Below are positions 7,101 to 63,750 of a stretch of 64,000 nucleotides of DNA, piece after piece. Source of the DNA: Chiridota heheva (Eukaryota; Echinodermata; Holothuroidea; Apodida; Chiridotidae); NCBI GenBank assembly GCA_020152595.1, contig JAIGNY010002171.1:907001-971000 (forward strand), written 5' to 3'. The notes below the pieces were generated by a model that saw only the letters and a program-made list of their open reading frames with translations, was not told the origin of the DNA and made no database searches. Made by a program: the position numbers and the translations under genes. Each line of letters starts with the position of its first letter. The stretch's first letter is position 1.

Positions 7101-7119
7101 TCTTTGCTTTTTGGTACCA

Positions 7120-7575
7120 AACTTATGCCCTCTCAATACCAAGTTATGCCCTTTCGATACCAAGTTATGCCCTTTCGATACCAAGTTACGCCCTCTCGAT
7201 ACCAAGTTATGCCCTCTCGATACCAAGTTACGCCCTCTCGATACCAAGTTATGCCCTTTCGATACCAAGTTACGCCCTCTCGATTTCAATACGCCCCAAG
7301 TTATGCCCTCTCGATACCAAGTTACGCCCTCTCGATACCAAGTTACGCCCTCTCGATACCAACTTATGCCCTCTCGATACCAAGTTACGCCCTCTCGATA
7401 CCAAGTTACGCCCTCTCGATTTCAAGTTACGCCCTCTCGATACCAAGTTACGCCCTCTCGATACCAAGTTATGCCCTCTCGATACCAAGTTATGCCCTCT
7501 CGATACCAAGTTATGCCCTCTCGATACCAAGTTATGCCCTTTCGATATCAAGTTATGGCCTCTCGATACCAATTT
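7120..7575. repeat. 21-bp minisatellite (heptapeptide-coding by chance)
   Basis: About 21 tandem copies of a 21-bp unit (GCCCTCTCGATACCAAGTTA with C or T variants) fill this stretch, with one irregular unit near 7283-7300. Because 21 is divisible by three, every frame repeats a heptapeptide such as MPSRYQV or LCPLDTK. Several ORFs of 113 to 187 codons therefore appear on both strands. No splice context, start context or non-repeat coding sequence supports translation. Confidence 0.93.
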
Positions 7576-8059
7576 ATCAGTTTGGTACCCAGAAATAAAA
7601 TCCGTTACCAAGTGGCTTTAAATCTATTTCATCAAATTTGGTATTACCAAATGGCAATCCTGCAATTTAACTGAACTATATTATAAAGTCCAGTGTGTCA
7701 GCATGCGATTATTTATAGGTCACATCAGCATTCTGAAAACTTCATTATTGTGAGGTTTCTGACAGTTGTTTGTCATTCTGTTGTTTGGTCTGTTCTTCTA
7801 GTGGCGTGATCATGCATAGTGGACGCATGATTATGATTCATTAGCGCATGCAGGCGCGACGAGATGACTCATGCGTGTGTGTGTGTGTCGTAATAACAGG
7901 CAGTACGAATTTCCGATTCCTCTGCACTGCACTACGCGGTGTAATATTATTTTAGATTTGAGTCTGAATCTGAATCGGTTAAGTCGGCAAAAATCCTTCA
8001 AGAGGACATGAACGCCAACCGAGCGTAAATAGTATGAGTAAAAAATAATATAAAAAAAA

Positions 8060-8368
8060 CTAGTTAGCAATACAGGTGTTAGTAAGTTTAGCTTTGAAAC
8101 AGTTGAGACTTAGTGCATGAACAATGTCTGACGGTAAAGCATTCCAATCCTTTAGTGTGTGAGGGAAGAAAGAGTGTTTATATACATTCTTTTTAGCATA
8201 GGGAATCTGGAAATTAAGGTCATGATTATTTCTTGTATTAGTTCTAACGGTGGGGATAAGTTCATCTTTATTGATGGCGACAAGATTGTTATTGATTTTA
8301 TATAGCATATGTAGCCGGGTGTTGTATCGTCTTGTTTTAAGCAGGGGCCAATCTAATTTATAAAGCAT
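8060..8368 (-). pseudogene. Frameshifted C-terminal end of the CR1-like ORF
   Basis: This frame continues the reverse transcriptase after the break, with LYKLDWPLLKTRR and later HTLKDWNALPSDIV, the usual CR1/jockey C-terminal motif (WN.LP..I). It overlaps the upstream frame by a few codons and ends at TAA (8060-8062). A 3' UTR of about 100 bases follows on the minus strand. The separate frame shows that the copy is disrupted. Confidence 0.85.
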
Positions 8369-11300
8369 GTTTTTACACTAGATTTATAAGAGTAGTCTGC
8401 CATACAGAACCTGGCTGCTCTCCTTTGAATAGATTCAAGTTTATCCACATCGCACTGGTGATGGGGGTCCCAGACTGCAGATGCGTACTCAAGTACTGGC
8501 CTGACTAGAGCTTTATAAGCAGTGGATTTAACGTCGGTGGGACAGTTTGAGAGGTTACGTTTTAAAAGGCCAAGTATAGAGTTAGCTTTCTTGGTTATGT
8601 TATGTATATGTTTATCCCATCTAAGTTTATTATCAATTTCAATACCTAGGTATGGGTGGGAGTTGACATGTTTTAGTGGCTGGTTGCATAAGGTATAAAC
8701 AGGTGATTTAAAGCATTTCTTAGAGGAAATTGACAAGATGTAGCATTTGGAGGGGTTGAAATTCATTTGCCATTTGTTTTGCCATTGTTCAAGTTTGTTA
8801 AGATCATCTTGGAGGATTTGTTGGTCAGAGGGGTTATCAATTGTTCTGTACACAAGGCAGTCATCAGCAAACAGTCTGACTGTGCTGTTTATATTATCAG
8901 GGATGTCATTTACATATAAGAGGAAAAGTAATGGACCCAAGACAGTACCTTGTGGTACACCGGATAAAACCTGTTTAGAATCAGAGATTTCACCATCGCA
9001 AACAACACGCTGGATGCGGTTGTGAAGGAATGATGCAAACCAGGCCAGAAGATTTCCATCAATGCCATAGGCGGAAAGTTTGGATAACAGGCGCTGGTGG
9101 GGGACTTTATCAAAGGCTTTTGAGAAGTCAAGAATAGCCATAGAGACGTTACTGTTTTGGTCAATTTGTTTAGAGATATCATTTATTGTTAAGAGGAGTT
9201 GTGTTTCAGTCGATCTTTTTGCACGGAAGCCATGTTGTAAATCAGTTAAGATATTATGCTCATCAAGGAATTTCATCACATGTGAGTGGATTATATGCTC
9301 AAGGATTTTACTACAAACGCAGGTGAGGGAAATAGGTCTATAATTAGCTGGGTTTTGTTTATCACCTTTCTTAAAAACACTACATATGTTTGCTTCTTTC
9401 CACTTGTTAGGGATAGTACCATTATCGACAGAGGTTTGAAAGAGATCAGTTAGAATTTCATAGAGGTCATCAGCATGTGCTTTTAGAAACCATGGTGGTA
9501 TTTGGTCAGGACCTGAGGCTTTGTTGGGGTCTAGGTTATGCAGTTGCTTTTTGACACCTTCTGGGGTAATTATAAGTTGGTTTATTTTGCTGTTGGTAAG
9601 TGGTTTAGTTACAGGAATTTGGGAGGTGTTTTCTACTGTGAAAACACTGAAAAACTGATCATTTAGAATGTTAGCTTTAGTTTTACTGTCACTGCAGAGT
9701 TTACCGTTATTTAGTAGATCAGACACACCTACAGAGTTACTTCTTAATCTTTTGATATAGGACCAAAATGCCTTTGGGTTTTCGTTAAGTGAGTTTTTAA
9801 GTTTATCACAGATGAAGGTGTTTCTAGCTGCTTTGAGGTTTTTATGGACAGCCTTTCTAAAGCTTTTATAGGTAGTCCAGTCATTGGCTTGTTGATTAGT
9901 CTTAGCTTTTTTAAACAGTTTATGTTTTTTCCTGCAGAGACGGCGTTGGATACGGGTAAACCAGGGCAGATTTAGTTTAGTTGAGGTGAATTTGTGAGGC
10001 GTGTTTTTATCAATAATCAATTTAATTTCTTGTTCAAAGAAATTCCATTTTTCATCAACATCAATGGAGGAATTAAATTGAGTATAATATTGCAGTTTAA
10101 ATTTGATCAGGTCTTCTTTTATTCGTTTTATGTTGGCTTTTTTCTTTAAATAGATTTTACGTTTAGGTAACTTTTTACGAGGAGGGGAGATATTTAGGGT
10201 CAATTCAACAATATCATGGTCACTTATACCGGGAATGACATTAGCTGAGGTAACAGCTGGTGAATTGTTAGTAAAAACAAGATCAAGGATGTTGTTATCT
10301 CTGGTGGGTGACTGCACCATTTGAGTGAGATTGAATGAATTGGTCACTTCAAGAAGAATTTTGGCTGCCTCGGAGGAAGCGTTAGTTCCTGAAATAATGT
10401 TTTGACTCCAGTCAATATTAGGTTGGTTGAAATCACCAGCAAGAATAACATTGTTTTTGTCAGCATTTTTACCAAGCTTTTGGAGGGATTTTTTCAACTC
10501 AAGTAGGCTAGTGAGATCATTGTGACTGGGTCTGTAAAATGTTCCTATATACATGCTCTTTTCCTTAGGAAATTGGAATTTGGTCCAGATAATTTCACAG
10601 TCAGAGTCTAATTTAGTGAGCTCAGTGAAAACCAGGTCATTTTTTATTGCCTGTAGTACACCACCATAAGTATTTGAATTTCTATCTTTGCGAACAACTG
10701 TATAGTTGTCCGGGAAAATTTCAGCGCTGGTAATTTCGGAATTAAGCCAGGTTTCAGTGCCAATAATGACATCTGGGTCTTTTTCTTTGATAAGACTTTC
10801 CACGGAGGCCGTCTTGTTTCGAACACTCTGAAAGTTGATAACAAGAAGTTTTAGAACCTTCCTTTTTTCCCTTTTGGGATTTGTTTTCAATTTGACATCG
10901 GGATGGTGGTTGGATCCCGAGTCAAGGCCAGAAGAATAATTTTGAAGTGGCTCATATGAGTTAGTACAGTTGATGGAATTGTTAGTTGAGAAGAAAGAAT
11001 CAGAGAAGTTCATGAAGTCGCAAGTGTCACACACCCAGGTACAGCTAGAATGCATGAGATCGCTGTATTTTGAGTCGTCAATGCTACAGCACTTAGTGTG
11101 GATCCATAGATCACAATTGTCACACTGTACTGCTTTTTCGGATCTCCTACACTGGAGTCCACACAGGCCACAAGGTGCCAAACATTCCAAACAAAACCAA
11201 TCATCAGATGATGATGCAAGAGTATTGTAAGCTGCATTACTAATGCCTGCACACTTACTATGAACCCACGAATCACAATCATCACAACAAATACCTTTCT

Positions 11301-11679
11301 GGTTATTTTTAACAGATTTGTTGCATTGTTTGCAAGGATATTTTGGGGAGGGTCCGGGATTGCTTTCAATATCACCAGAAAGGGTAAGGAGTAAAAGGAG
11401 TAATTTTCTCCTGCGTGAGTTGAATTTTGTCAATTTCCAACTTGATTTGTACGAATGTAATTGCCCATCGATACAAAGATAAGTTGCAAGTGAGTAATTT
11501 GAATAATCACTAGAGCCAAACAAAACATGGTAACCAGTTCCTGGGGCGTTTAGAGGCAAATTTGATGCCTGGGATGAATGAGGTTGCGATGAATACAAGA
11601 AGTTTAGAGAGTTAGAGACTCGGGAGTATGTTAACAAGAACAGTACAGGGAAGACGAGATTGTGAGTGAGAATGAACAT
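8353..11679 (-). CDS. CR1-like polyprotein: 2A peptide, double PHD, APE endonuclease, reverse transcriptase
   Basis: The frame is open from 11781, but the first ATG is at 11677-11679, which gives about 1108 codons; numbering below starts there. Residues 1-20 are strongly hydrophobic (MFILTHNLVFPVLFLL), like a signal peptide. Residues 93-110 end in SGDIESNPGP, a canonical 2A skip motif (positions 11350-11403). Two Cys/His PHD-like fingers follow at about 116-166 and 170-221. The APE endonuclease spans about 276-496 with TETWL, AGDFN and GISDHDIV. The RT has motif A ILDFSKAFDKVPH (about 849), motif B SGVPQGTVLGPLLF and motif C FADDCLVY (about 937). In the family such proteins nick target DNA and prime reverse transcription. 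The frame ends early after YKSSVK. The true continuation lies in another frame (8060-8368), so one base has probably been gained or lost in the A-run near 8371. Confidence 0.9.
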   Translation of the reverse strand: MFILTHNLVFPVLFLLTYSRVSNSLNFLYSSQPHSSQASNLPLNAPGTGYHVLFGSSDYSNYSLATYLCIDGQLHSYKSSWKLTKFNSRRRKLLLLLLTLSGDIESNPGPSPKYPCKQCNKSVKNNQKGICCDDCDSWVHSKCAGISNAAYNTLASSSDDWFCLECLAPCGLCGLQCRRSEKAVQCDNCDLWIHTKCCSIDDSKYSDLMHSSCTWVCDTCDFMNFSDSFFSTNNSINCTNSYEPLQNYSSGLDSGSNHHPDVKLKTNPKREKRKVLKLLVINFQSVRNKTASVESLIKEKDPDVIIGTETWLNSEITSAEIFPDNYTVVRKDRNSNTYGGVLQAIKNDLVFTELTKLDSDCEIIWTKFQFPKEKSMYIGTFYRPSHNDLTSLLELKKSLQKLGKNADKNNVILAGDFNQPNIDWSQNIISGTNASSEAAKILLEVTNSFNLTQMVQSPTRDNNILDLVFTNNSPAVTSANVIPGISDHDIVELTLNISPPRKKLPKRKIYLKKKANIKRIKEDLIKFKLQYYTQFNSSIDVDEKWNFFEQEIKLIIDKNTPHKFTSTKLNLPWFTRIQRRLCRKKHKLFKKAKTNQQANDWTTYKSFRKAVHKNLKAARNTFICDKLKNSLNENPKAFWSYIKRLRSNSVGVSDLLNNGKLCSDSKTKANILNDQFFSVFTVENTSQIPVTKPLTNSKINQLIITPEGVKKQLHNLDPNKASGPDQIPPWFLKAHADDLYEILTDLFQTSVDNGTIPNKWKEANICSVFKKGDKQNPANYRPISLTCVCSKILEHIIHSHVMKFLDEHNILTDLQHGFRAKRSTETQLLLTINDISKQIDQNSNVSMAILDFSKAFDKVPHQRLLSKLSAYGIDGNLLAWFASFLHNRIQRVVCDGEISDSKQVLSGVPQGTVLGPLLFLLYVNDIPDNINSTVRLFADDCLVYRTIDNPSDQQILQDDLNKLEQWQNKWQMNFNPSKCYILSISSKKCFKSPVYTLCNQPLKHVNSHPYLGIEIDNKLRWDKHIHNITKKANSILGLLKRNLSNCPTDVKSTAYKALVRPVLEYASAVWDPHHQCDVDKLESIQRRAARFCMADYSYKSSVKTCFIN

Positions 11680-13149
11680 GATTGATGGCAAGAAGAATGA
11701 ATATACTTGACAAACAGGAAAAACAGAATGGTAGAGCAAATAAACACTGTAATACAGAAAAGAATATGAATGGAATGACAATAAACAATAAACTTACTCA
11801 GGTCACAGTATTAATAATGTTCCGATCACCGAATAAAAAAATGTGGAAATGGTAAAACTACAAAGGCCTAGCTCGTTTGTTTTATCTTGACAGCTGTCTG
11901 CGATACTGTTGTCTTTTTTGTTTTGTTTTGCGTGAGTTGAAGTTGAGTAAAGAAAAAACACTTTTTAACCGACGCCACTGAAATACGTTATGCATCTAAG
12001 GGAATAAAAAGCAAAAATAAAGGCTAACTCTATAGCTGTACGCGGTCACCTACTGTTTTCAACATGTCTGAGGGTGAAACATTTGCAAGAGTGTTGTCGT
12101 TGGCTCTGTCACAGTGATGTAATAACAGAAGGGTAACTGTCCGGCCTTGTTGGCTTTTCATTGAAATCTACCCTTGGGACACATTTATGGAGAAGTCTCT
12201 TAGCAGTCATGCTCAGGGGTGGCGGAAGATGTTTGAATTTGGGGGCACACACAGCGGAGAATTTCTAAACTTAATCTGTTGGAAAATTACTGCTGATCTT
12301 TTGTGCATTTTTAAAATATTGTATTATTCTATTATTTTTTTGCAACCACGAAAAGTTGTCAATTTTAGATCAAGATATTTAGGACCAAACTTCGGGGAAA
12401 AAAGATTTACGAATTTACGATTATTGAGAAACTTATTGTTTATAAGTCTTGAAATCAGAAATATTTAGATGATTGACCATGATTAATCAATTGTGTAAGT
12501 TGAACAAGGTTCTGAATGTTTAAGTGTTATACAATGTGAAAGGCAAATAAGGTGTCATTAAAATGGTTCAAGATGAAAAGTTGAATAATTTTCATATGAA
12601 TTCAATTAAGTTATTTGGATACATCATTATTATGTTAGACAAGTTAGCTCAAATTCACACTCCTCAGCGAGTAAGTGACAAGTTAAGGCCCCCAATTGTA
12701 AGTTTTTTCCTCTAGTTTGTATTAAACAGTTAAAGGTGGCCCTCATTAAAATTTGGGTGCTTCAAGCCTTGCACAAAGAAGTTGTGTACTTTCTTTAATT
12801 TGTCAATAAAAAGAAGGGACTTGTAATTTAATATGATACAGAAGCAGGGGCGTTAATACCGGGTGTGTGCTGTCACCCCCCAACCACCACCACCCCCAAT
12901 TGTGAGTTTCTGAGACGGTAAATCTGGTATAAGGACAGTAAAATTTCAGGTTTGGAATACGAAACAAGCCAATTTGCCAATTGATGAGCCAATTTTGATT
13001 ATTAGTTGAACTTTTAACTTAATCTATATAAGATATAACAAGTTTGTTCTTACATCGAAATCGTCTTATGAACAATCCGACGTATTGCACATGTAATTAG
13101 CAGTGCCTCCGTGCCTTAAACCCAAAATGGCTCCTCAGTCCTAACTTGC

Positions 13150-16743: not shown

Positions 16744-37818
<21,075 letters not shown>

Positions 37819-52200: not shown

Positions 52201-55200
52201 TGTGTACAACAGATCCTTTGCGACACCGTCTGCCAAAGCTCCGCTATTCCACTTCCTGGCATAATCTGCCCAAATGCTGCAAGAAAAGACATCAGGAGAT
52301 GGAATCCACAAAGGCGCACAACGACTTTGTGTTGATCTTCTGGGAAACTACAATCTCCGCAGCTTTAATGTATAAGGGCTGATCAAATGTGACTGGCCTA
52401 CCTGCAAGTCATGTTTCTCACACTGTTTTTGAGCAAAGCATAAATTAGTGTTGATAGTGCTTAACTGGTTGCAACCAGATTGATGAAGGGAAGGGTTACA
52501 ATTCTGCTTCTCTCATACTCTTGATTCGTCAGTCACTTTCATAAAGCCACTCCATGAGGGGCATTGGATATATCTAGAATGCAGCCACACACCCACAGGG
52601 CATCTAGGGCAACTGCTGATCCTAGGCATGATGGTTCCTGGCTAGGAATCTAGAGGGCTCCATTGTAACAGACTGTAGACCTAAAACAGCTGGTTTGCTA
52701 TACGTCTTATATGGAAATTTGTCCAAAGCACCAGTGATTTTAGAAGACTGGAGCTTTACTTCGTGATTGTTAGGTGAGCTATTCACAATACTAGATGGTG
52801 CTTCACAAGCTACACCACCCATACTATAAAAAGTGTTGTGTCCCGTAACTGTAGCTACATTGAAGTCAGCGTTATCAAACACAAACTGTGTGAAACCATT
52901 CAGGTCATATGACAGGTCACTCACTACCTGACATAAGGACTTGCTCAAACCGCTACATCTCTTTGTAGTTATCTGCAAAGCAAATGCTGTTAAGAATGTC
53001 AATCAGTTCACGGGAGGCATAATTGCGGTGTATTTACACAGCTATTCCAAGCAATAGTGTTGAGATAAAGAATATGGGTCTGCTTGCAGAAATTAGAGCA
53101 TGTGCTATGGCTGTGCATTTCCTATCTGAAACAGTGCTGCTTTCACCCTAACCACCCACCAAGTTGTGTAGGAAACGCTTAAGAGAACTGGGTATCAATG
53201 TGTCTCTGTTTTCTGTTCCTTCCAATGTTGTGTACTCATCACAGTCATACACTGTCAATTTTATATCGTTCATCTCTGGAATAATAGAAGCAGCCATATC
53301 TATTATCAGTTCACTTTGACTACTCACATCAATCACCTTATCAATCAGGTTCCCTATCATACTTGGTTTTCCAGTAAATCACTTTCACCATAATGTTTCT
53401 TAAGTTTGGCCTTTAATTACTTCACTGAGTATTCTTCAGATCCATCGAAGAATGTGCTCATGTATTCCAAAAGCTCCTGCACTGAGTATTAACACTCATC
53501 ATTATTAATTAGAAATTCGCAGAGCTTCTTAAATGCTTCCCCCCTCAAATTCTCATTTGGCCTTTCCTCACAAATAATTGGGCACACTTTATACTAAACC
53601 GCCGCTGCTAAAAGGTCATGTCTGTTGTACACGTTCTGCAACAACATTGCCCCACTAGTCTTGTCCTTCTCTTTCACATTTTAATACTGTTGCTTAAAAG
53701 TTCGAAGGTCTTCACATTGCTTACTACTCTCCTTTTATATGGTCTCTTAATGTCTAGTTTGTTTGTTTGCTTGTTTGATGAGGGCTCAACAGCACCATGA
53801 CAGCGAGAGTCAAATTGTGCCTGAGAGGTTAGATCATTCCAGAGGAAGGAAGAAAAGAAAACAGAAGGAGTCTGAGAGAAGTACAGGGGCTAATAGCCAA
53901 AAAGCTGGGATCGAAAGAGGAAGTGCAGGAGTGCAAAAAATAAAAGGGGGTAAATTTAGGTAGAGGGGGTGGGAGAGGGGGACTAAATATGGTTGTAGAG
54001 GGAGGCATGATTAAGGAAGGAGATAATTTTATACAAAGGGTTTTTCTGGAACAGCTCCGCTATGGAGTTGTGAGGGGTGAGGGAAGCTCTGGGGAGGTTG
54101 TACAGGGGGCAGGCAAGGAGGATGTGGTGGATTTTGAGGGAAAATGGCAATTGTTGCAGAGGGGTGAGGGAGCCAGTGAGGAGGTGGGAGTGAGTGAGGT
54201 GGGTGTGACCTATTCTAAGGTGGGTAATGTGGATGTTGTCGATACGGGAGAGATTTGTGGATGGTGGGTTTGGTCAGAATAATCGGCTGGATGTCCTGGA
54301 GTTTCTTATCAATTTGGGAGTCCCATGAGGTTTGTCTGCAGTCACGAACAAGGGAAGCGATAAGTGGTTTGATGTCAGAAAGGGGTTTGGGAAAGGGGGT
54401 AGGGGGAAGGTTGAGGGCAAACGTAGTGGCTGAAACAGCTCTGTCATTGCCAGGGATGCCAACATGGCTGGGTGTCCAGAAAAAAAGAATGCTTTTCATG
54501 CAAAGGGGAGGGGGGGGGGGGTGAAAGGAGTTTACAGGGGAGGTGGGACGTGGGGTTATCCCACCTAAGATTGAGTAAAGAAGTAAGGACAGACTTGGAG
54601 TTTGAGAAAATGGCAAAGTGGGGAGTACTCAGTATAGTTGAGGGCGAGTAGGATGGCCTTGGCCGAGAAGATGGACGAGTAGTTGGGAAGCCTGTTACTG
54701 AGGGTGATGTTTTGGATGACGGCAGCAGCAGCTAGCTGTCTTGTCGCCTTCCTTGGAGCTATCAGTATAGAGGTGTAGTTTGAGAGTTGGTCTTTGATTT
54801 GGTTGTGGAGTTTGATGAAGAGGTTGGGGTGGGTTTGGGTTTTGTGATGAGGGGAGAGGCCCAGGTGGATGGAAGGGAGGGGTGTCCCAGGGAGGAAGAG
54901 TGGGCCAGAAGAAGGTGCCAAGAGTGGCAGGGTTGATGTCGAGATGGTGGAGGTTAGATTTAGTGTGTAAGCTGAAGGAAGGGGATAGGGTTTTAGTCCT
55001 ATTAAAGAGGGTGGAGAAATTGGGGTACCTAATGAGGTTGTATACAGGGTTTTCGGTGTTGGTGAGGACTCTGAAAGCATAGGAAAGGGTAAGTTTTCTA
55101 CACCTGAGCAGAAGGGAGGGGGAGGGGGGGGGAGTTTGTTGGATTCAACGTGAAAGCTGGTGATGGGGGATGTCCTGTAGGCACCCAGACAAAATCTGAG

Positions 55201-58200
55201 TGCTTCATTTTCAATGGTATTGAGGTAAGAGTTGTGAGCGGCACAGTTGACAATATTGCCATAGTCGAGCTTGGCACGAATGGTGAGCCTGAAGATTTTG
55301 AGAGAGCGTGGGGGTCTGCACCCCAAGTGATGTTGGGGAGGAGGCAAATGTTGAGGGAGCTGTTGAATTTCTGTTTCAGGTTGTTACAGGTTGGTGATGT
55401 GTTGTTTGTACGAAAACTTGGGGTCTAAAATTTAAAGCCAGCAACTTAGTGTGGTCAACTTTAGAGATGGATTGCCATTGAGCATGAGGTTGGGTGGAGG
55501 TTGTTGAAATGACAGAAGTGCATGCAGAGTGTCTTGTCTTTGGAGCAGCTAAAACCGTTATTGTTGCACCAGTCTTGCAGCCGGTTAAGGCTAAGTTTTT
55601 CGACGAGAGAAAAGCTAGGGGAGGAGTAGAAGATGGTGAAGTCGTCCATGTAGAGGGCACATTTGAAGTTGGGGCCAAGGTTGTCCGCGATGTTGTTAAT
55701 GCTCAGGTTAAGAAAGTAGGGGAGAGGATGCTGCCTTAGGGGCACCCTTTTTTGGGGAGGTCGGGGTTGGAGAGGGTGTGGCCAATACAAATTTGGAACT
55801 GCCTGGGTGAGGAAGTTTTGAATAAAGATGGGGAGGTGGCCTCTGAGGCCGATGGTGTGAAGCTTGCGGTAGTGCTGTATTTCCAAGTATTGTCAAAAGC
55901 TTTCTCGAGGTCAAAAAATATGGCAATGAGGTGTTTGTTTTTGCAAAGGATTCCTGGATAGCAGTGTCCAGCGTGATTAACTGGTCCAAAATATTGCGAC
56001 ATTTTCAGAAGCCACTTTGATGATGGGAGAAGATTCTGTTGATCTCAAGGAACCAGTTTAAGTCTCTGGTTAATGATCCTTTCCATAATTTTACAGAGAC
56101 AGAAGGTGAGGGAGATGGGACGGTAGCTGGAGGGGTTGGTGCTGTCCTTCCCCGTTTTGAGGATGGGGACAATGATAGCTGTCCTCAAGATAGGAGGAAA
56201 GGAGTGTAAGGACCAAATGTGGTTGAGGATGGTTGAGTACAGTAGTGTTGGCCTTGTTGGGGAGGTGTTTCAGGAACTGGTAGGGGATGTTATCTAGGCC
56301 CTTGAAGATGCAGCCAGCATCTTGGATGGTTTGTTTAATTCAGATAGGGTGAGAGGGGTGTTGTAGCTATCAGTGTTGTCGAAGGAAAGGGTAATACTCC
56401 GGGTTTTGTCGCAAGCTTTTTTGGCTTTGAAAGCATTGGGGTAGTTGGCCGAGGACAAGATGTTGCTGAAAGAGGCGGTTAGCGATATCCTTTTTCCCGG
56501 TGAGAAGATTACCATTCTGGGAGAGATGGGAGACTTGCCCACCCTGCCGTGGAAGCTGTTTACCATACTCAAAATCTTCTTAGTGAGAATGTTGGTGGTA
56601 AGAAAAGAGATGAAGTTGTTTTAAGTGTTGGTTTTACTGTCCTTAATAGTGTGCCTGGCTTTGGAGTTTGATGGCATTTGAAGTGTTGGGGTAGGGGAAA
56701 AGGAAGGAAGGTTGGGAACAGAGGTGGTGGTGGGGTGATTTGTATAAAGGGTGTGGTTGGCTTGTTGGCAAAGGCGATGGGCTTAGGTCTCACCAAGAAG
56801 AGCCAGGTGAGGTCGGTTTGGGCATTTCAGTCAGTTTTAGTTGTATTAGGGGGGCTGTATTGGTATTTGAGGAGACTGTGCTCGAGTAGGAAGGTTTGGT
56901 GTGGAGGAAAATAAGGAATTGCTTCCTGGCCTCTGGGTAAATGATGCTGGGATTAAGGATTTTCAGTTTTTGTATCTGTTTTCCTGAATCCAGGTGGGGC
57001 AGTCTTTTGAGAAGGAGGGATGGTTGGCTGGGTGAGTACTGTTGCAATTGGTGCATTGTTGGGTGTTGGTGCATTGTTGGGTGTTGGTGCACTGTGGGGT
57101 GTTGGTGCACTGTGGGGTATTGGTGCAAGAGGTGATGTCATGGTCCAGGGCTCCACAGTTGCCACAGCGCGCTTGGCTATGGCAGGATTTGCCCATGGCC
57201 ATACCTTTGGCACTTATGACAACGGAGGAGGTTGGGAATGTAGGGGTGACTGGGATTCTCAGATAGCCGGCAGTGATGTGGGAGAGGGGAGAGTTGCTGT
57301 GGCAAAAGTCAGGAAGATGGTATTGGTGGGTGTTTTGGCACCGTCTCTCTTGAGGACTAGACGACAGGCCTCAGTGACGTGTTGGCTGGCAAGTGGCAAG
57401 TTCCTCAATAGGGTTTCATTAAACAAGTGGGCAAGGTCTCTGGTTCTAATGATGCCTTTGCTGGAGTTCAGGCAATGGTGGGAGTGACTGTTATGTTGAT
57501 ACCAGTATTAGCCAGGGTTTTGGTGGTGAGGAGGGTGGTGGATTGAGTGTCCCTGGTGCAGTGCACCAGGAGATTGCTGGATCTGAGGGTAAAACCTTGG
57601 GGGAGGGTAACAACAAGGCCGTGGAGTGCCTTGTGTATGAGGAAGGGAAACTCTTTTGAAACTTTTGTTGGTGGCCTGAATGATTAAAATTTTGGGGACT
57701 GGGCCGAGGAATGGTCAATGGAGGTAGCAGGTAGGTCACGGGGGGGGAGAGAGTTAAGGTCAAGGTAGAAGCGTTTAGTCATGTTAAAAAAAATACCAAG
57801 GCCGGAGACCCGAGGCAACTAAAAAGAAAAAAAAAGTCGTGGAACTACTATACGAGAACCACTGTAAAAGTACTGAAAAGGGCGTGATTGCCTCACAACG
57901 GAGTGAAAAATATAAAGGTCGACAACTGAAAGCAGCCACCCATCCACAAAGGAAAAAAAAAAAAAGTTTAGGTGGAAAAACTAGAAAAGTTTGAGAGAAC
58001 AGACAGGAAGTCACATTGCTCTCAACAAGCTCTGTAGCTCTGGTGTTTCTGCCAAGTTAAACATGTTTTGACACTGTGTTGATATTTGTTACATTTCGTA
58101 GTTATGGTAAAAATAGATAAAATGGCGGCCATTTTGGACACCATCTTGGTTTGACGTAATTTGGGATGTTATAACCTCTAAAGTGCTGCTATCAATGAAT

Positions 58201-61200
58201 TACTTGTCCCTAAAAACATATGTTTAAACACTTACCTTTTTATTTAAAACCTCTCTGGATGCAAAGTTATGATAAAAATGAAAATGATGGCCATTTTGGA
58301 GACCATCTTGGATTTCTGGGAAAGCTCAAGGAGGATTTCAGGGGACTTTTAGTATGTTTTCTACACATAATTCTGGACCTATTCTGGAAAAAATCAACTT
58401 GTTACCAGCTATTTCAGGATTGGGCCATTTTTTATCTAAAATTCTTGGTCTAATTAGGAATCACTTACTCAATCATGGGTAATATTCTTATCTTAAGAAA
58501 ACTTTCATCCTGTAGTGAAGTTTCTTATTTGATTTGCAAATTGTATACACAGCTGGATCCTAATTCTCAGTAATAGTAATAGTAATTATTTTATATAGCA
58601 CCCTTTGTGTACAAGTATATTTAAGAGCGCTTTACAAACATCAGAGCTTTAGCATAGGGGAGAGCTGCCCATCATCCATCCATTAGCTCAGGGAAGTGAA
58701 TGAACACCACGTTTTCAAGCTTCTCTTCTCGAATAGTGTTCAGAGAACCAGGTATGGTGTGACTGTCCTACCATCGGGACCTTTGAAGGACGGCGAGCAC
58801 CATTCAACCATTGCCACTTCTCTCCACAGCTGAATGGGGAGCAGAAGCTGCAACGATGTACTTCCGCATGGAAGTACATCAGGGGACATTTCTTATATCT
58901 TTAGAAAGTTGCAATCATTATTTATTCTAATTACCCAATATTGTGCAAAAACAGGAGGAGCCTGGTCAAGTACATACCCATTGTACATTGCAAAAGTCGC
59001 AACATAAAATTGAAGAAATTTTAAAATTGAACAAATATTGTACAACACTAACCCCCTTTCAGATGGTGTAATACTGTTTCTTCTTTGAAATCCCACACCT
59101 TAAATGACCCATCCTCATATCCTGAGATGCATCTCTTCCCATCAGGCATCACTCTACCACATGTTGTCTGGCAACCGTGACCAGGCATCATCTTGGTGTT
59201 TCCTGATGGTATCTTCCACATCCACGTTTCACCCTCAGAGGTCCCAGCAAGCAGCACATGAGCAACAGGATGCCATGTTAACCACTATAACAGAAAAGGG
59301 GATATCTACAAATTAATTCTACAACTTTACATCAAGAATCAATTATGTTAAAATGATAATTTGATTGTTTTAGGGAATCTTTTCTAAAATATAAAAACCT
59401 TTAAGTATTTTAAATTCTCTTTTAAGACAATTTTTTTATTCTAAAACAAGTGTCCTTTAATCAATCAGACCACTGGAACTTAGACATGAACTACAGCAAA
59501 CAGCTACAAACATAATGTAAGATATTAACAAATCCTTTCAAGTACTGTGAGCACCTTGAATGCAAAAATGGAAATGAGGAGGCCAGATGCAGAGTACGAG
59601 AACCCCGGATATTACGTCCAATTCCTGGAAAACATATGGCATTGCCCCGCGGAAAGGAACACTTAATTTCATACTGGTGCTTTGTGGGGTACACACCTGC
59701 AATTAAATAGATTGCTTGCTATGGAGGTCACACACTCTTATCTACTTACAAAGTTAAACACAAACACGTACCAGCTTCATACATAACAGACTCTCCAATA
59801 TTCTGGTAAGTGATATTCAGATTTATCCTACCTCAAGATCTGGACCCTCAAATGTCCATATCTCCTCTTTGCTGTCCACATTCCACACTTTGATGATGCC
59901 ACTCATATCTCCTGTAGCTACCAGAGTTCCATCATGGCTGAAGCTTAGACATGTCACTGAATCCTTGTGACCTACAAAAATGTTAACAATATTAAAAACT
60001 ATTCAACCTTGTGACCTGTCAAATGTTAAAATCTAGATATTAACACCTATTTTGGTTTCTGGTCTAGGATTCCTTGTCAACAACAGTAGCAATATATTTG
60101 CCTGTTTACCTTTCATTTATTTTTTTCTCATCATTACATGCTTTATCTGGAGTATTTACAAGATTACTTTCAAATCCTTTTGTATTCTTTTTATTAAAAA
60201 ATTTTAGGGGTAAAGAATTAGCGAATACTGAGAAATAAGAATAAGCATTAAAACTATGACCTGTCTCTTCCTTTAATTGGATTGTAATTCTTTTATTATA
60301 GGTTTACAACTAGACAGGTAAATACAATCATCGTTCGCATGCCCATGCTAATTAACACCCAAATCATATGACCTGCCCAATTATAAGAATGGTAACCCAC
60401 TGTCTGTCCCACAAGGTATCCCATGTCCCACATGGCATCCCATCTCATGTCCCATATCTCATGTCCCAAATGGCATCCTATTCCACATGGCATCCCACTC
60501 CATGTCCACATGACATCCAATCCCATGTCCCACATGCTATTCAACCATATGGAATTCCACCATGTCCCTCATTAGATCCCACCATATGTCCCACATGGCA
60601 TCCCACCCTATGTCCCACATGGCATCCCTCCCTATGCCTCCCATGGCATCTCATTTAAAGTTCAGCATCAATGGCTTCCTACCCAATGTCCCATATGGTA
60701 TCCCCTATGTCCCACATTAGATCCCAGCAAATGTCCCACATGGTATCCTTCCCCATGTCACAATGACATCCCACTTATGTCCTGCATGACCTCCTACCCT
60801 AGGTCCCACATGGCATCCTACCCTAGGTCAAAATGGCATCCTACCATGTCACATTTTGTACACATCACTTGTGGCATCCCACCCATGTCCCACATTACAT
60901 CCCATGTCCCACATGGCATGGCATTCCATGTCCCACATGGCATCCAATGTCCCAGATGGCATACCATTATATGGCATTTCACCATACATGGTATTCCACT
61001 ATATGGCATTCCACCATATGTCCCACATAGCATCCAACCATATGTCTCACATGGCATCCCACCATATGTCCCACATAGCATCCCACAAGGCATCCCATCC
61101 TATGTCCCACATTGGATTCCACTATGTCTCACATGGCATGGTATCCCACCATACATGGCATCCCATGTCCCACATGGCATCCCATGCCCCACATGGCATC

Positions 61201-63750
61201 CCATGTCCCACATGGCATCCCATGTCCCACATAGCATCCTATGTCCCACATGGCATCCCATGTCCCACATTTCCCACATGGCATCCCATGTCCCACATAG
61301 CATCCCATGTCCCACATGGCATCCCATGTCCCACATGGCATCCCATGTCCCATGTGGCCTCTTATTTCCCACATGGCATCCCATGTCCCACATTTCCCAC
61401 ATGGCATCCCATGTCCCACATGTCATCCCATGTCCCACATGTCATCCCATGTCCCACATGTCATCCCATGTCCCACATGACATCCCAAGTCCCATATGGC
61501 ATCCCATGCCCCACATGGCATCCCATGCCCCACATGGCATACCATGTCTCACATGGCATCCCATGTCCCACATGGCATCCCATGTCCCACATGGCATCCC
61601 ATGTCCCACATGGCATCCCATGTCCCACATAGCATCCCATGTCCCACATGGCATCCCATGTCCCACATGGCATCCCATGTCCCACATGGCATCCCATGTC
61701 CCATATGGCATACCATGTCCCACATGGCATCCCATCATATGTCCCATATTGGATCCCACCATGTCTCACATGGCATCCCTCCCTATACCCACATGGCATC
61801 CCCCCTATGTTCCCCATGTTATGTCCCACTCAGTGGCTTCCCACATGTCATATCCTAAATTATGTCTCACATTAATCCCACCATGTCTCACACAACATCC
61901 CATGTTCCATGTGGCATTCCACCATATGTCCCACTTGGTATCATGTCCCACATATCATTCCATCCTATGTTTCACATTGGATCCCACCATGTCCCACATG
62001 GCATCCCTCCCAATGTCCTACAACATGGCTTCCCTCCCTATGTCCTACATGGTATCCCTCACTATGTCTCTCATGGCAAGCCAACTTATGTCCCACATGT
62101 CATCACATCCTATGTCCCACATGGCATCACATCCTATGTCCCACATGGCCACCTACCCTATGTCACACATGGCACCCACTCTAAGTCACACTCTGTGTCT
62201 CACATGATATCCCATCTGATATCCAACATTGCATCCCATCTGTCTTACATAGCCTCCCAACCTATGTCACATGTGGTATCCCACCCTGTGTCACATGTGG
62301 GATCCACCATGTCCCACATGACATCCCATCCGATTTCACACATGGCACCCACCATATGTCACATGTGGCATCCCACTCTATATCCCACATAGCATCCCAT
62401 CTGATGTCACCACATGTCATCCCACCCTACATGTATGTCCATAAACTCCATAAGCAGTCTCGTCCTACAATCGTGGCAAAAAGTAGTTGGGACAACACCC
62501 CACTCCCCTCGATCAATGTTGAAAGTCACATTTTACCATGTTTTTGAGCAAAGTGGGAAAACATTGTTTAAAAAGAGGGAGCACTTTTGGCCATGATTGT
62601 AGCTAAAATGCTATTTAAATTTTTTAGCAGTTTTAAAAAAATTAAATGGAGTCAAATAATCATGCCTGATTTAGAGCATACCACATGGTATATATCCCAT
62701 CCTATGTCCCACATGGCATCCCTCCCAATGTCCATATGCAGTCACACTCCCTGACTGAGCATACTAAGTATAAAAGTCTTGTCAACAAAAGTAGCAAATT
62801 TATGCAAATGAACAGAATAATAAAGGCAGAGTTTAATAATCATGCCTGATACAGCCGTTGGTGCACAAATATTTTGAAGAATTTTAAAGATTTTAAACCT
62901 CAAGTGTTATGAGAGACAGTTGGGGATCTCTGAAGAATACTGGAAAAGTATATCATCTTACAGTTATCTTCTAAGAAAATATCAAATGTTTTGCAGACTT
63001 CTTAAGGAAACTAGTTTTCAACCTGTCTAAAGATCTCTGAAAAACTTCAAATTTTTAAAAGAAAAATCCAGCCTTCCATGAGGATATCTTAAGAAACTTT
63101 CAACTTTTTCAGACGAATTCTTAAGAAGCTTTAACATTTTCTGAGGATTTTTCAAAATACTAACATTTCTGAAGAAATCTCAGGAAAAAATGTGGACAGT
63201 TGGACAAAATCGCTATTGCATAAGTCTGCATTATGCTTTGCATGCTCACCAAAAACACTCTCACAAATGCCTTGACACACTCACCAATGTCATTTTAAAG
63301 TTTTTCAAAATCAGGGCATGATATTCAGCCCTAGTTACTTATCAATGATACATTTAAACACTTTCCAATAAAAACTCTTTTTGGTAGCAACTAGTTTATG
63401 GTACAAGCTTCATGCCTACAGTACCAACATGAACGACAAATACTCCAAGGAGGGAACTTTTCCACTCTGAGATATCTGTGCAAATATTCAATCAAATTTG
63501 TTATTTTCACAAATAATAGTATCAATGTTTTCTACATGTATCAGAAAATTAAAACATCAATATTCAATGTAATTCAAAAACCACCAAACTTGTTAGCTGG
63601 ATATATGTAAAAACAAGACATAAAGCTAACCAGTGCATTTCATGTACAATTCACCACTCTCCACACTCCAGAGGTAGGCTTGGTCATCCTCCCCACCAGA
63701 AATAGCAATTAATCCATCGGTTGGCTCTATAGCACAACAGAAAACAGATC
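43270..63750 (-). CDS. AAMP: AAMP, angio-associated migratory cell protein, WD40 repeats (partial: N terminus off window)
   Basis: Eight minus-strand coding exons, in transcript order: 63631..63750, 59832..59971, 59053..59284, 48764..48876, 48314..48399, 47132..47222, 44194..44348 and 43270..43345 (stop TAG 43270-43272). All have GT-AG borders and compatible phases, giving 336 complete residues; human AAMP has 434, so about 100 N-terminal residues lie to the right. Matches to the human protein recalled from memory run in order: [123 protein letters not shown] and a final FKVTQPDR. It forms a WD40 propeller; the yeast orthologue Sqt1 is a ribosomal protein chaperone, while animal roles in migration are less defined. 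The donor at 48313 is GTTTGT; it was chosen over GTAGG four bases earlier because only it keeps the frame. The third intron is 10 kb and holds a transposon. Confidence 0.93.
44755..46267. mobile_element. 1.5-kb TTAA-flanked TIR element in an AAMP intron
   Basis: The left end after TTAA (44751-44754) reads AATGGTCCTGCCATG. The right end reads CATGGCAGGACCACT before TTAA (46268-46271), giving 15-bp inverted ends with one mismatch inside a TTAA target duplication. No transposase is visible in the interior. It contains a tRNA-like stretch near 45605-45670 (AGCCCAGTCGGTTACAGC then GAGTTTAAATC). TTAA duplication is shared by piggyBac and Kolobok families; which one applies is not clear. Confidence 0.75.
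45605..45670 (+). other. tRNA-like fossil
   Basis: TAGCCCAGTCGGTTACAGC resembles a tRNA D-arm/A-box. GTTACGAGTTTAAATC about 35 bases later resembles a mutated T-arm/B-box (normal GGTTCGAATCC). The acceptor stem cannot be paired, so this is a tRNA-derived relic and not a working gene. Confidence 0.35.
46272..47131. other. AAMP intron
   Basis: AT-rich intron sequence with poly-A and AAT runs. No exon, hairpin or tandem array is recognised. Confidence 0.45.
47223..48313. other. AAMP intron
   Basis: AT-rich intron sequence between the exons at 47132-47222 and 48314-48399. Nothing is recognised apart from small chance ORFs. Confidence 0.45.
48963..49300. repeat. Left long terminal inverted repeat of the Academ-like element
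   Basis: It pairs with 58090-58452. Shared blocks include CTCCTTGAGCTTTCCC, AAATCCAAGATGG, ATCATAACTTTGCATCCA and GGGACAAGTAAT. Beyond 49300 a further diverged sub-repeat (ACAAATTATCCAATAA, AAGATGGCGTCCAAAAT) continues the terminal region. Confidence 0.82.
49790..53400 (-). pseudogene. Decayed transposon gene: XPG/FEN1-like nuclease motifs plus CXC cysteine-rich domain
   Basis: Read on the minus strand, fragments in changing frames fall in a sensible order. 53148-53360 gives an N-terminal piece ([10 protein letters not shown]). 52622-53002 gives [20 protein letters not shown]. 51443-52111 gives middle pieces with LGAVLW and DSTLTKWVH. 50543-50944 gives VVFDGYGS, then [10 protein letters not shown] and [12 protein letters not shown]. 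50258-50524 gives [19 protein letters not shown]. 49790-50125 gives a Cys-rich CGCKAEGC, then [10 protein letters not shown] and CSKCTGQTC. The ADAD..GTDTDLL..TGCD..S order is that of the XPG-I and helix-hairpin regions of FEN1-type nucleases. The Cys cluster resembles tesmin/TSO1 CXC domains. Such proteins are multicopy in many invertebrate genomes. Frame changes and stops show that this copy is dead. Confidence 0.72.
53757..57785 (-). mobile_element. RNase H-bearing LINE (I-like), decayed, inserted in the Academ-like element
   Basis: Minus strand. The 3' tail lies at 53757-53785 (complement of CATCAAACAAGCAAACAAAC). RNase H is at 54215-54720 ([16 protein letters not shown], upstream [10 protein letters not shown]). 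Thumb and linker region is at 54565-55440. RT pieces are at 55460-56300: [17 protein letters not shown] (motif A), then PFFLN-like motif B remains and [12 protein letters not shown] (motif C). Pre-RT sequence at 56290-56570 has [12 protein letters not shown] Gag-like zinc-knuckle region is at about 57000-57200 ([14 protein letters not shown]) with an internal 18-bp repeat at 57050-57125. Frames shift throughout. There is no room for an APE endonuclease between Gag and RT, so that part seems deleted. It is the same family as 19165-20080. Confidence 0.85.
58090..58452. repeat. Right long terminal inverted repeat of the Academ-like element
   Basis: The inverted copy of 48963-49300; on the plus strand it reads ATTACTTGTCCC, GGATGCAAAGTTATGAT, CCATCTTGGATTTC and GGGAAAGCTCAAGGAGGATT. 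The two copies differ by roughly a fifth to a quarter of positions by eye, which implies an old insertion. Confidence 0.82.
58563..58880 (-). mobile_element. Retroposon 3' end with TATATAA and ATT-type tail
   Basis: On the minus strand the sequence ends GTAAAGCGCTCTTAAATA, then GGGTGCTATATAAAATAATT and ACTATTACTATTACT. This is the familiar form of SINE/LINE 3' ends in marine animals (GTAAAGCGC..GCTATATAAA followed by a trinucleotide tail). The upstream part, to about 58880, has no coding content and forms a short hairpin (GTACTTCCGCATGGAAGTAC) at 58858-58877. The family is not identified. Confidence 0.55.
60390..62440. repeat. 19-bp minisatellite in an AAMP intron
   Basis: About one hundred copies of a 19-bp unit (CCCATGTCCCACATGGCAT), regular at 61150-61740 and more diverged on both sides. 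A detached piece lies at 62690-62735. Three units make 57 bases, so all plus-strand frames read a 19-residue motif ([19 protein letters not shown]). ORFs of up to 476 codons appear on the plus strand and shorter ones on the minus strand. The array is intronic to AAMP and antisense for the largest ORF. It is a repeat artefact, not a gene. Confidence 0.95.
62441..63630. other. AAMP intron
   Basis: AT-rich intron sequence. Apart from a detached minisatellite fragment at 62690-62735 and a few CTTAAGAAA..TTTTCAGA-like blocks at 62930-63180, nothing is recognised. Confidence 0.45.

Follow-up and report, generated by a model that had tools for sequence, protein, structure and literature searches.

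The locus raises the question of whether a 2A (StopGo) sequence near the N terminus of a retrotransposon protein divides that protein into two products, and whether the peptide cut off in this way is a product in its own right. We addressed this in the window, the whole stretch of 64,000 nucleotides analysed here, together with related copies and other 2A sites in the same genome.

A 2A sequence ahead of LINE enzyme domains

Translation of the minus strand gave LLLLLLTLSGDIESNPGP at 11403-11350, inside an open reading frame (ORF) of 1142 codons (8353-11781). The 18-residue 2A sequence (11350..11403, minus strand; LLLLLLTLSGDIESNPG^P) is made up of LLLLLL, TLSG and DIESNPGP. An in-frame 2A preceded by a run of leucines had been proposed here in the initial annotation; its coordinates proved exact, the core is DIESNPGP and the six leucines are indeed read on the minus strand. 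No second NPGP was observed in any of the six frames of the 64-kb window. The core agrees with (D/G/C/N)(V/I)ExNPGP as defined in the accessible part of PMC12846837. Section 10 of that source, in its accessible part, also describes a class of RNA-virus StopGo sequences in which a leucine-rich stretch with (A/S/C)G at its end is followed by D at p12, with S at p15, and compared by eye with this description the window carries a known functional upstream context, LLTLSG ahead of p12=D and p15=S. Four upstream motifs were tested according to the same accessible text, all of them active and one of them leucine-rich (motif 6), a member of which was active in reticulocyte lysate. Judged by its residues, the upstream hexapeptide of the window 2A fits the LLLLSG class of StopGo sequences.

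Downstream of the 2A and in the same frame, Pfam identified two PHD stretches, an APE-type endonuclease and a reverse transcriptase (RT), which bears out the double PHD module and enzyme domains of the initial annotation (E-values for the window ORF of 4.1e-11 for PHD, 4.2e-14 for Exo_endo_phos_2 and 4.2e-35 for RVT_1). All are encoded on the minus strand, with PHD finger 1 at 11182..11334 (PF00628, residues 150-200 of the TTG-started ORF), PHD finger 2 at 11014..11172 (delimited by eye on its Cys/His pattern), the endonuclease at 10207..10824 (PF03372, residues 320-522; PF14529, residues 411-525) and the RT at 8638..9360 (PF00078, residues 808-1048). An ORF in another frame (8060..8368, minus strand) continues the protein with what is by eye a typical LINE C terminus, and this continuation had no Pfam match. 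The window copy retains 999 residues after the skip point, and its frame of 1146 codons compares with frames of 1212-1282 codons (stops read through) in the sister copies L002, L003, L004, L006 and L015. The APE endonuclease and RT within one protein (Pfam) identify the element as a LINE, and the N-terminal PHD followed by endonuclease and RT in one ORF gives it the PHD-bearing single-ORF layout. By this architecture a CR1-like placement in the CR1/L2 lineage is plausible, the name CR1 coming from architecture and recall.

Ends and completeness of the element

Sister copies were collected with a protein search in which the best 40 of 39065 candidates were scored and 49 pieces listed, and 30 loci were taken (L001 being the window). 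Homology common to the window and its sisters (blastn) stops at 11864 (at precisely this position in 11 copies) and at ~7960, which delimits a window copy of 3905 bp (7960..11864, minus strand; 3' limit approximate) with its 3' end in ATTCAG-type repeats. Position 11864 was considered as the 5' end of the element itself and ruled out, as the 11 copies whose shared homology stops there continue upstream and the truncated copy is that of the window. Upstream sequence was compared in 15 copies; 14 of them continue beyond 11864, and ten of these reach a common point ~240-250 nt further up, beyond which the flanks diverge; L004, L025, L012 and L008 stop short of this point and L006 has no match there. 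Because its sisters extend upstream of 11864, we regard the window copy as 5'-truncated, with ~244-248 nt missing.

A perfect 90-bp target-site duplication lies flush with both ends of L002, the one copy among the 24 tested with a clear duplication, and none adjoins the window copy. Since this duplication fixes the ends, the complete element measures ~4.17 kb, and its 5' untranslated leader ~430 nt. Stops in all three frames of this leader, and no ATG-started frame longer than ~20 codons, were seen by eye in four copies, and it therefore contains no ORF1; the full-length element is a single-ORF LINE. Further LINE traits were observed in the many copies, their frequent 5' truncation, the simple 3' repeat tail and the target-site duplication. 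A full-length element whose reading frame leaves out the 2A segment was also sought, and L002, the sole copy clearly bounded by a target-site duplication, aligns over residues 1-1139 straight through it (its core reads DIESNPGS, and its frame has four stops). The window copy is probably dead, given its 5' truncation and the C terminus in another frame. In L023 the first bases of the element (GAGCGTACATAG...) were found in tandem at its 5' end.

Elsewhere in the window, a tandem array with a 21-bp unit (7115-7577) lies a few hundred bases past the 3' end of the element. Large tandem arrays occupy 28777-30001, 30448-32974 and 61081-62423, the latter two containing long repetitive ORFs that are probably spurious, and the start of an ORF at 54565-55347 (minus strand) resembles an RT C terminus by eye and is possibly the remnant of another LINE. 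Rfam gave no match in the window at gathering thresholds.

Start codon and leader peptide

The predicted leader peptide ends with the G of NPG and is 109 residues long, with the P that follows starting product 2 (11350..11679, minus strand); it is supported by ATG conservation, dN/dS and hydropathy. Its ATG, at 11679, is preceded by no other in-frame ATG in the window copy. Among 44 aligned rows, in which two loci appear twice with different ids, 34 have ATG at this column, seven are without data and three are changed; further upstream, in-frame ATGs were seen only in L003 and L021, immediately ahead of the start. The remaining 5' untranslated leader (11680..11864, minus strand) carries stops in this frame in most copies. 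Homology to A2, a sister subfamily ~83-87% identical in nucleotides (A1 being the subfamily that includes the window copy), begins one or two codons before the ATG in four distinct A2 loci. As the ATG is conserved and A2 homology begins there, an ORF start at ATG 11679 is well supported.

Residues 8-18 of the leader form a hydrophobic, signal-like stretch (hydropathy 2.33), and a second hydrophobic segment lies at residues ~93-104, after RRRK. The leader region had no Pfam match in the whole-ORF scan, and its matches among solved structures included no convincing relative (four matches, best E 0.62). Kinship with the leader of the DIELNPGP family described below, which had seemed likely by eye, was rejected, with 100 of 2000 shuffles scoring equally (67 of 2000 when the shuffles were windowed).

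Selection on the leader, the 2A and the enzyme

Four A2 loci were compared with 47 A1 sequences, of which one is the window, 29 came from the protein search and 17 from a motif search; pairs covering less than 60% of a region's codons were dropped, which kept 58 to 148 pairs. Between A1 and A2, dN/dS was 0.29 for leader codons 1-82 and 0.25, 0.27 and 0.19 for the PHD, endonuclease and RT, respectively, while codons 83-92, just before the 2A, showed no constraint (1.09). The 18-residue 2A gave 0.16, a value that, unlike those of the leader and PHD, is biased downward because the four A2 loci were found through the motif. Ratios within A1 were 0.34 to 0.64 (1.07 for codons 83-92), higher as expected from A1 copies being largely dead. 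When the window was compared with each A2 locus, the excess of silent changes in the leader was significant in all four cases (Fisher test, p 3.2e-6 to 4.7e-4), and the 2A alone reached p < 0.05 in three of four. In the single pair checked, the two other frames of the leader had pN/pS of ~0.75 and 0.97. The leader is under codon-level purifying selection, and for this reason the 109-residue peptide is probably a real product.

Conservation of the motif within the family

Whole-protein similarity provided 29 A1 copies other than the window, 21 of which align over the region and 19 of which cover the motif; 15 of these 19 keep it, and one of the four changed cores merely lacks its last codon. 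For A2 the sample came from a DNA search with the PHD region (best 40 of 672 candidates scored, 20 loci taken from the first 23 places), leaving out the query's own locus as well as C769 and C557, both known to be intact from the motif search. The core was intact in six of these 20 loci and changed in 14, or intact in eight of 22 with C769 and C557 included. One changed A2 core, NIENNPGP, still falls within the broadened core given in the accessible part of PMC12846837. The changes differ between copies, with some common to L067 and L068, to L075 and L086, or to L076, L077 and L083. Because copies that were not chosen for the motif retain it in both subfamilies, the 2A is, as judged from its distribution, ancestral to the family, and the founders of A1 and A2 carried both the motif and its leucine-rich context.

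2A sites across the genome

The pattern D(V/I/M)ExNPGP occurs at 356 sites (167 + 189) in the 1.10-Gb genome against a single site for the reversed pattern, a control which argues that the motif is not there by chance. Of the 356, a sample was read, and its loci were mostly decayed. By translation, 20 of 30 loci extracted around motif matches belong to the window family, and 29 of the 41 sites whose second place is V, counted by eye, represent one sequence type (GATGTTGAACTT...). L066, a member of this type, carries LLLLAG-DVELNPGP ahead of a coiled-coil-like domain, which is followed by an endonuclease (Pfam E 3.5e-8) and what looks by eye like an RT. An L1-ORF1-like identity was considered for its first domain and set aside; as there was no solved-structure match, and the Pfam matches were all below curated cut-offs, we term this domain only 'coiled coil'. 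In the DIELNPGP type the endonuclease comes directly after the 2A (L057, Pfam E 1.2e-5; L046 and L056 by eye). L062 combines DIETNPGP with a sequence that looks coiled-coil-like by eye and with an endonuclease (Pfam E 9.1e-8), and L033 has DIETNPGP followed by a PHD that lies in another frame (E 3.9e-4, under the Pfam cut-off) and an endonuclease-like piece seen by eye. In L066, the DIELNPGP type, L062 and L033 alike, no recognisable domain precedes the 2A. Coiled-coil-like sequence also follows the 2A in L045, L048 and L053, and the stretch around the motif in L061 contained no recognisable LINE domain. As read from these loci, the genome holds at least three further LINE types with a predicted 2A upstream of the endonuclease.

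In L048 a DVELNPGP-type 2A and coiled-coil-like sequence are followed, at most ~400 nt on, by RT C-terminal sequence ~80% identical to that of the window family, and we take this locus to be a nested, deleted or recombined element.

Discussion

The explanation that we consider very likely is a single-ORF APE-type LINE in which StopGo would split a 109-residue leader from a PHD-PHD-endonuclease-RT protein. Translation would begin at ATG 11679 and produce the leader ending in ...LLLLLLTLSGDIESNPG, where the nascent 2A would stall the ribosome and the leader would be freed without a stop codon; the ribosome would then restart at the proline and make the PHD-PHD-endonuclease-RT portion as its own protein. 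The 2A may in this way replace the second ORF with its own start found in two-ORF LINEs, one mRNA giving a small first product and the enzyme. The motif, its frame, the ends of the element and the codon constraint on leader and enzyme are observed, and to these we add an inferred skipping activity and efficiency. As to the leader's role, likewise inferred, the signal-like hydrophobic start at residues 8-18 and the sea-urchin NLR precedent in the accessible text of PMC4981915 point to membrane targeting as a fair guess.

The 2A might instead be a relic or a chance motif, with the element making one fusion protein in which the leader is a plain N-terminal domain. This would suit the lack of constraint on codons 83-92 and the cores changed in 4 of 19 A1 and 14 of 20 A2 copies, and skipping activity is here predicted from sequence. 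Yet the founders of both subfamilies kept the motif and its leucine-rich context, the changes are mostly copy-specific, with some in two or three loci, as expected of dead copies, and both the genome-wide excess over the reversed pattern and the other LINE types with a 2A ahead of their first domain weigh against it, so that we judge a relic or chance motif highly unlikely. We give hardly any credence to the leader region being 5' UTR only, with a later start codon and a 2A never read together with the leader: the window copy does lack part of its 5' leader and its start site is a prediction, but the constraint on the leader is codon-based, its other frames giving the pN/pS of ~0.75 and 0.97 cited above for a single pair, and ATG 11679 is both conserved and the first in frame.

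Two further readings build on StopGo activity. The leader with its 2A may chiefly be a dual targeting signal, the skipped product 2 being cytosolic or nuclear and the unskipped protein being retained in the secretory pathway, a reading that adds to the StopGo explanation and does not exclude it. The hydrophobic segments at residues 8-18 and ~93-104, the second after RRRK, and the published precedent of sea-urchin NLR 2A signal sequences (PMC4981915, accessible text) speak for such a signal, whereas the leader has no K or R among its first residues and the published case, as that text describes it, is a 26-residue N-terminal 2A set against 109 residues here; on balance we find it doubtful. It is rather improbable, as a bolder proposal would have it, that leader-plus-2A is a portable 5' module that several LINE lineages of this genome place before first domains as different as a double PHD, a second kind of PHD, a coiled coil or the endonuclease itself, and also a translational switch, by which skipping would give a nuclear-competent enzyme and its failure an enzyme tethered to the membrane by the leader.

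Under the preferred StopGo split of leader and enzyme, the sequence evidence indicates that a leader cut off by a LINE 2A would be a constrained product, not dead weight, and that both products would be selected. The complete element has no ORF1, and LINEs of differing structure within one genome repeatedly carry a 2A before their first domain. Whether a 2A stands in for the two-ORF layout thereby becomes testable within one host.

Comparison with known systems

2As in APE-type LINEs of multicellular organisms were reportedly described by Odon et al. 2013 (Mol Biol Evol 30:1955), and are said to occur in the Rex1, Crack, L2, L2A, CR1 and Ingi clades with some correlation with single-ORF elements. 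Those elements and the window element share a 2A in an APE-type LINE ORF and a single ORF. L1Tc of Trypanosoma cruzi (Heras et al. 2006) is also said to carry a 2A in frame with LINE proteins, a frame arrangement like that of the window element in a different clade and host, and we take it to have no PHD.

The accessible part of PMC4981915 states that non-LTR retrotransposons contain active 2As. The sea-urchin NLR 2A signal sequences described there are likewise near the N terminus and of signal-sequence character, but belong to a host gene, with a 26-residue N-terminal sequence and no LINE enzyme. The LLLLSG-class viral StopGo sequences in the accessible part of PMC12846837 share with the window the leucine-rich stretch ending in SG and D(I)ES-NPGP, with p12=D and p15=S, but come from RNA viruses and not from a LINE. 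In the accessible part of PMC4120745, a survey of ORF1 in the Jockey superfamily, CR1 subgroup 6 and L2 subgroup 4 are apparently single-ORF elements with an N-terminal PHD and endonuclease and RT downstream; one PHD is reported there, in contrast to two in the window element, and the term '2A-like' occurs zero times in that main text, in contrast to the 2A found here. The combination of 2A, PHD and retrotransposon was not found in the literature searched, a scope outside which the text of Odon et al. 2013 lies, and its absence is thus unproven.

The initial annotation had called the pairing of a 2A with a double PHD notable. Both features are real, but the novelty is less than was implied, because 2As in APE-type LINEs and PHDs in single-ORF CR1/L2 elements have each been described previously. 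The window element joins these two known features, the 2A of an APE-type LINE and the N-terminal PHD of single-ORF CR1/L2 elements.
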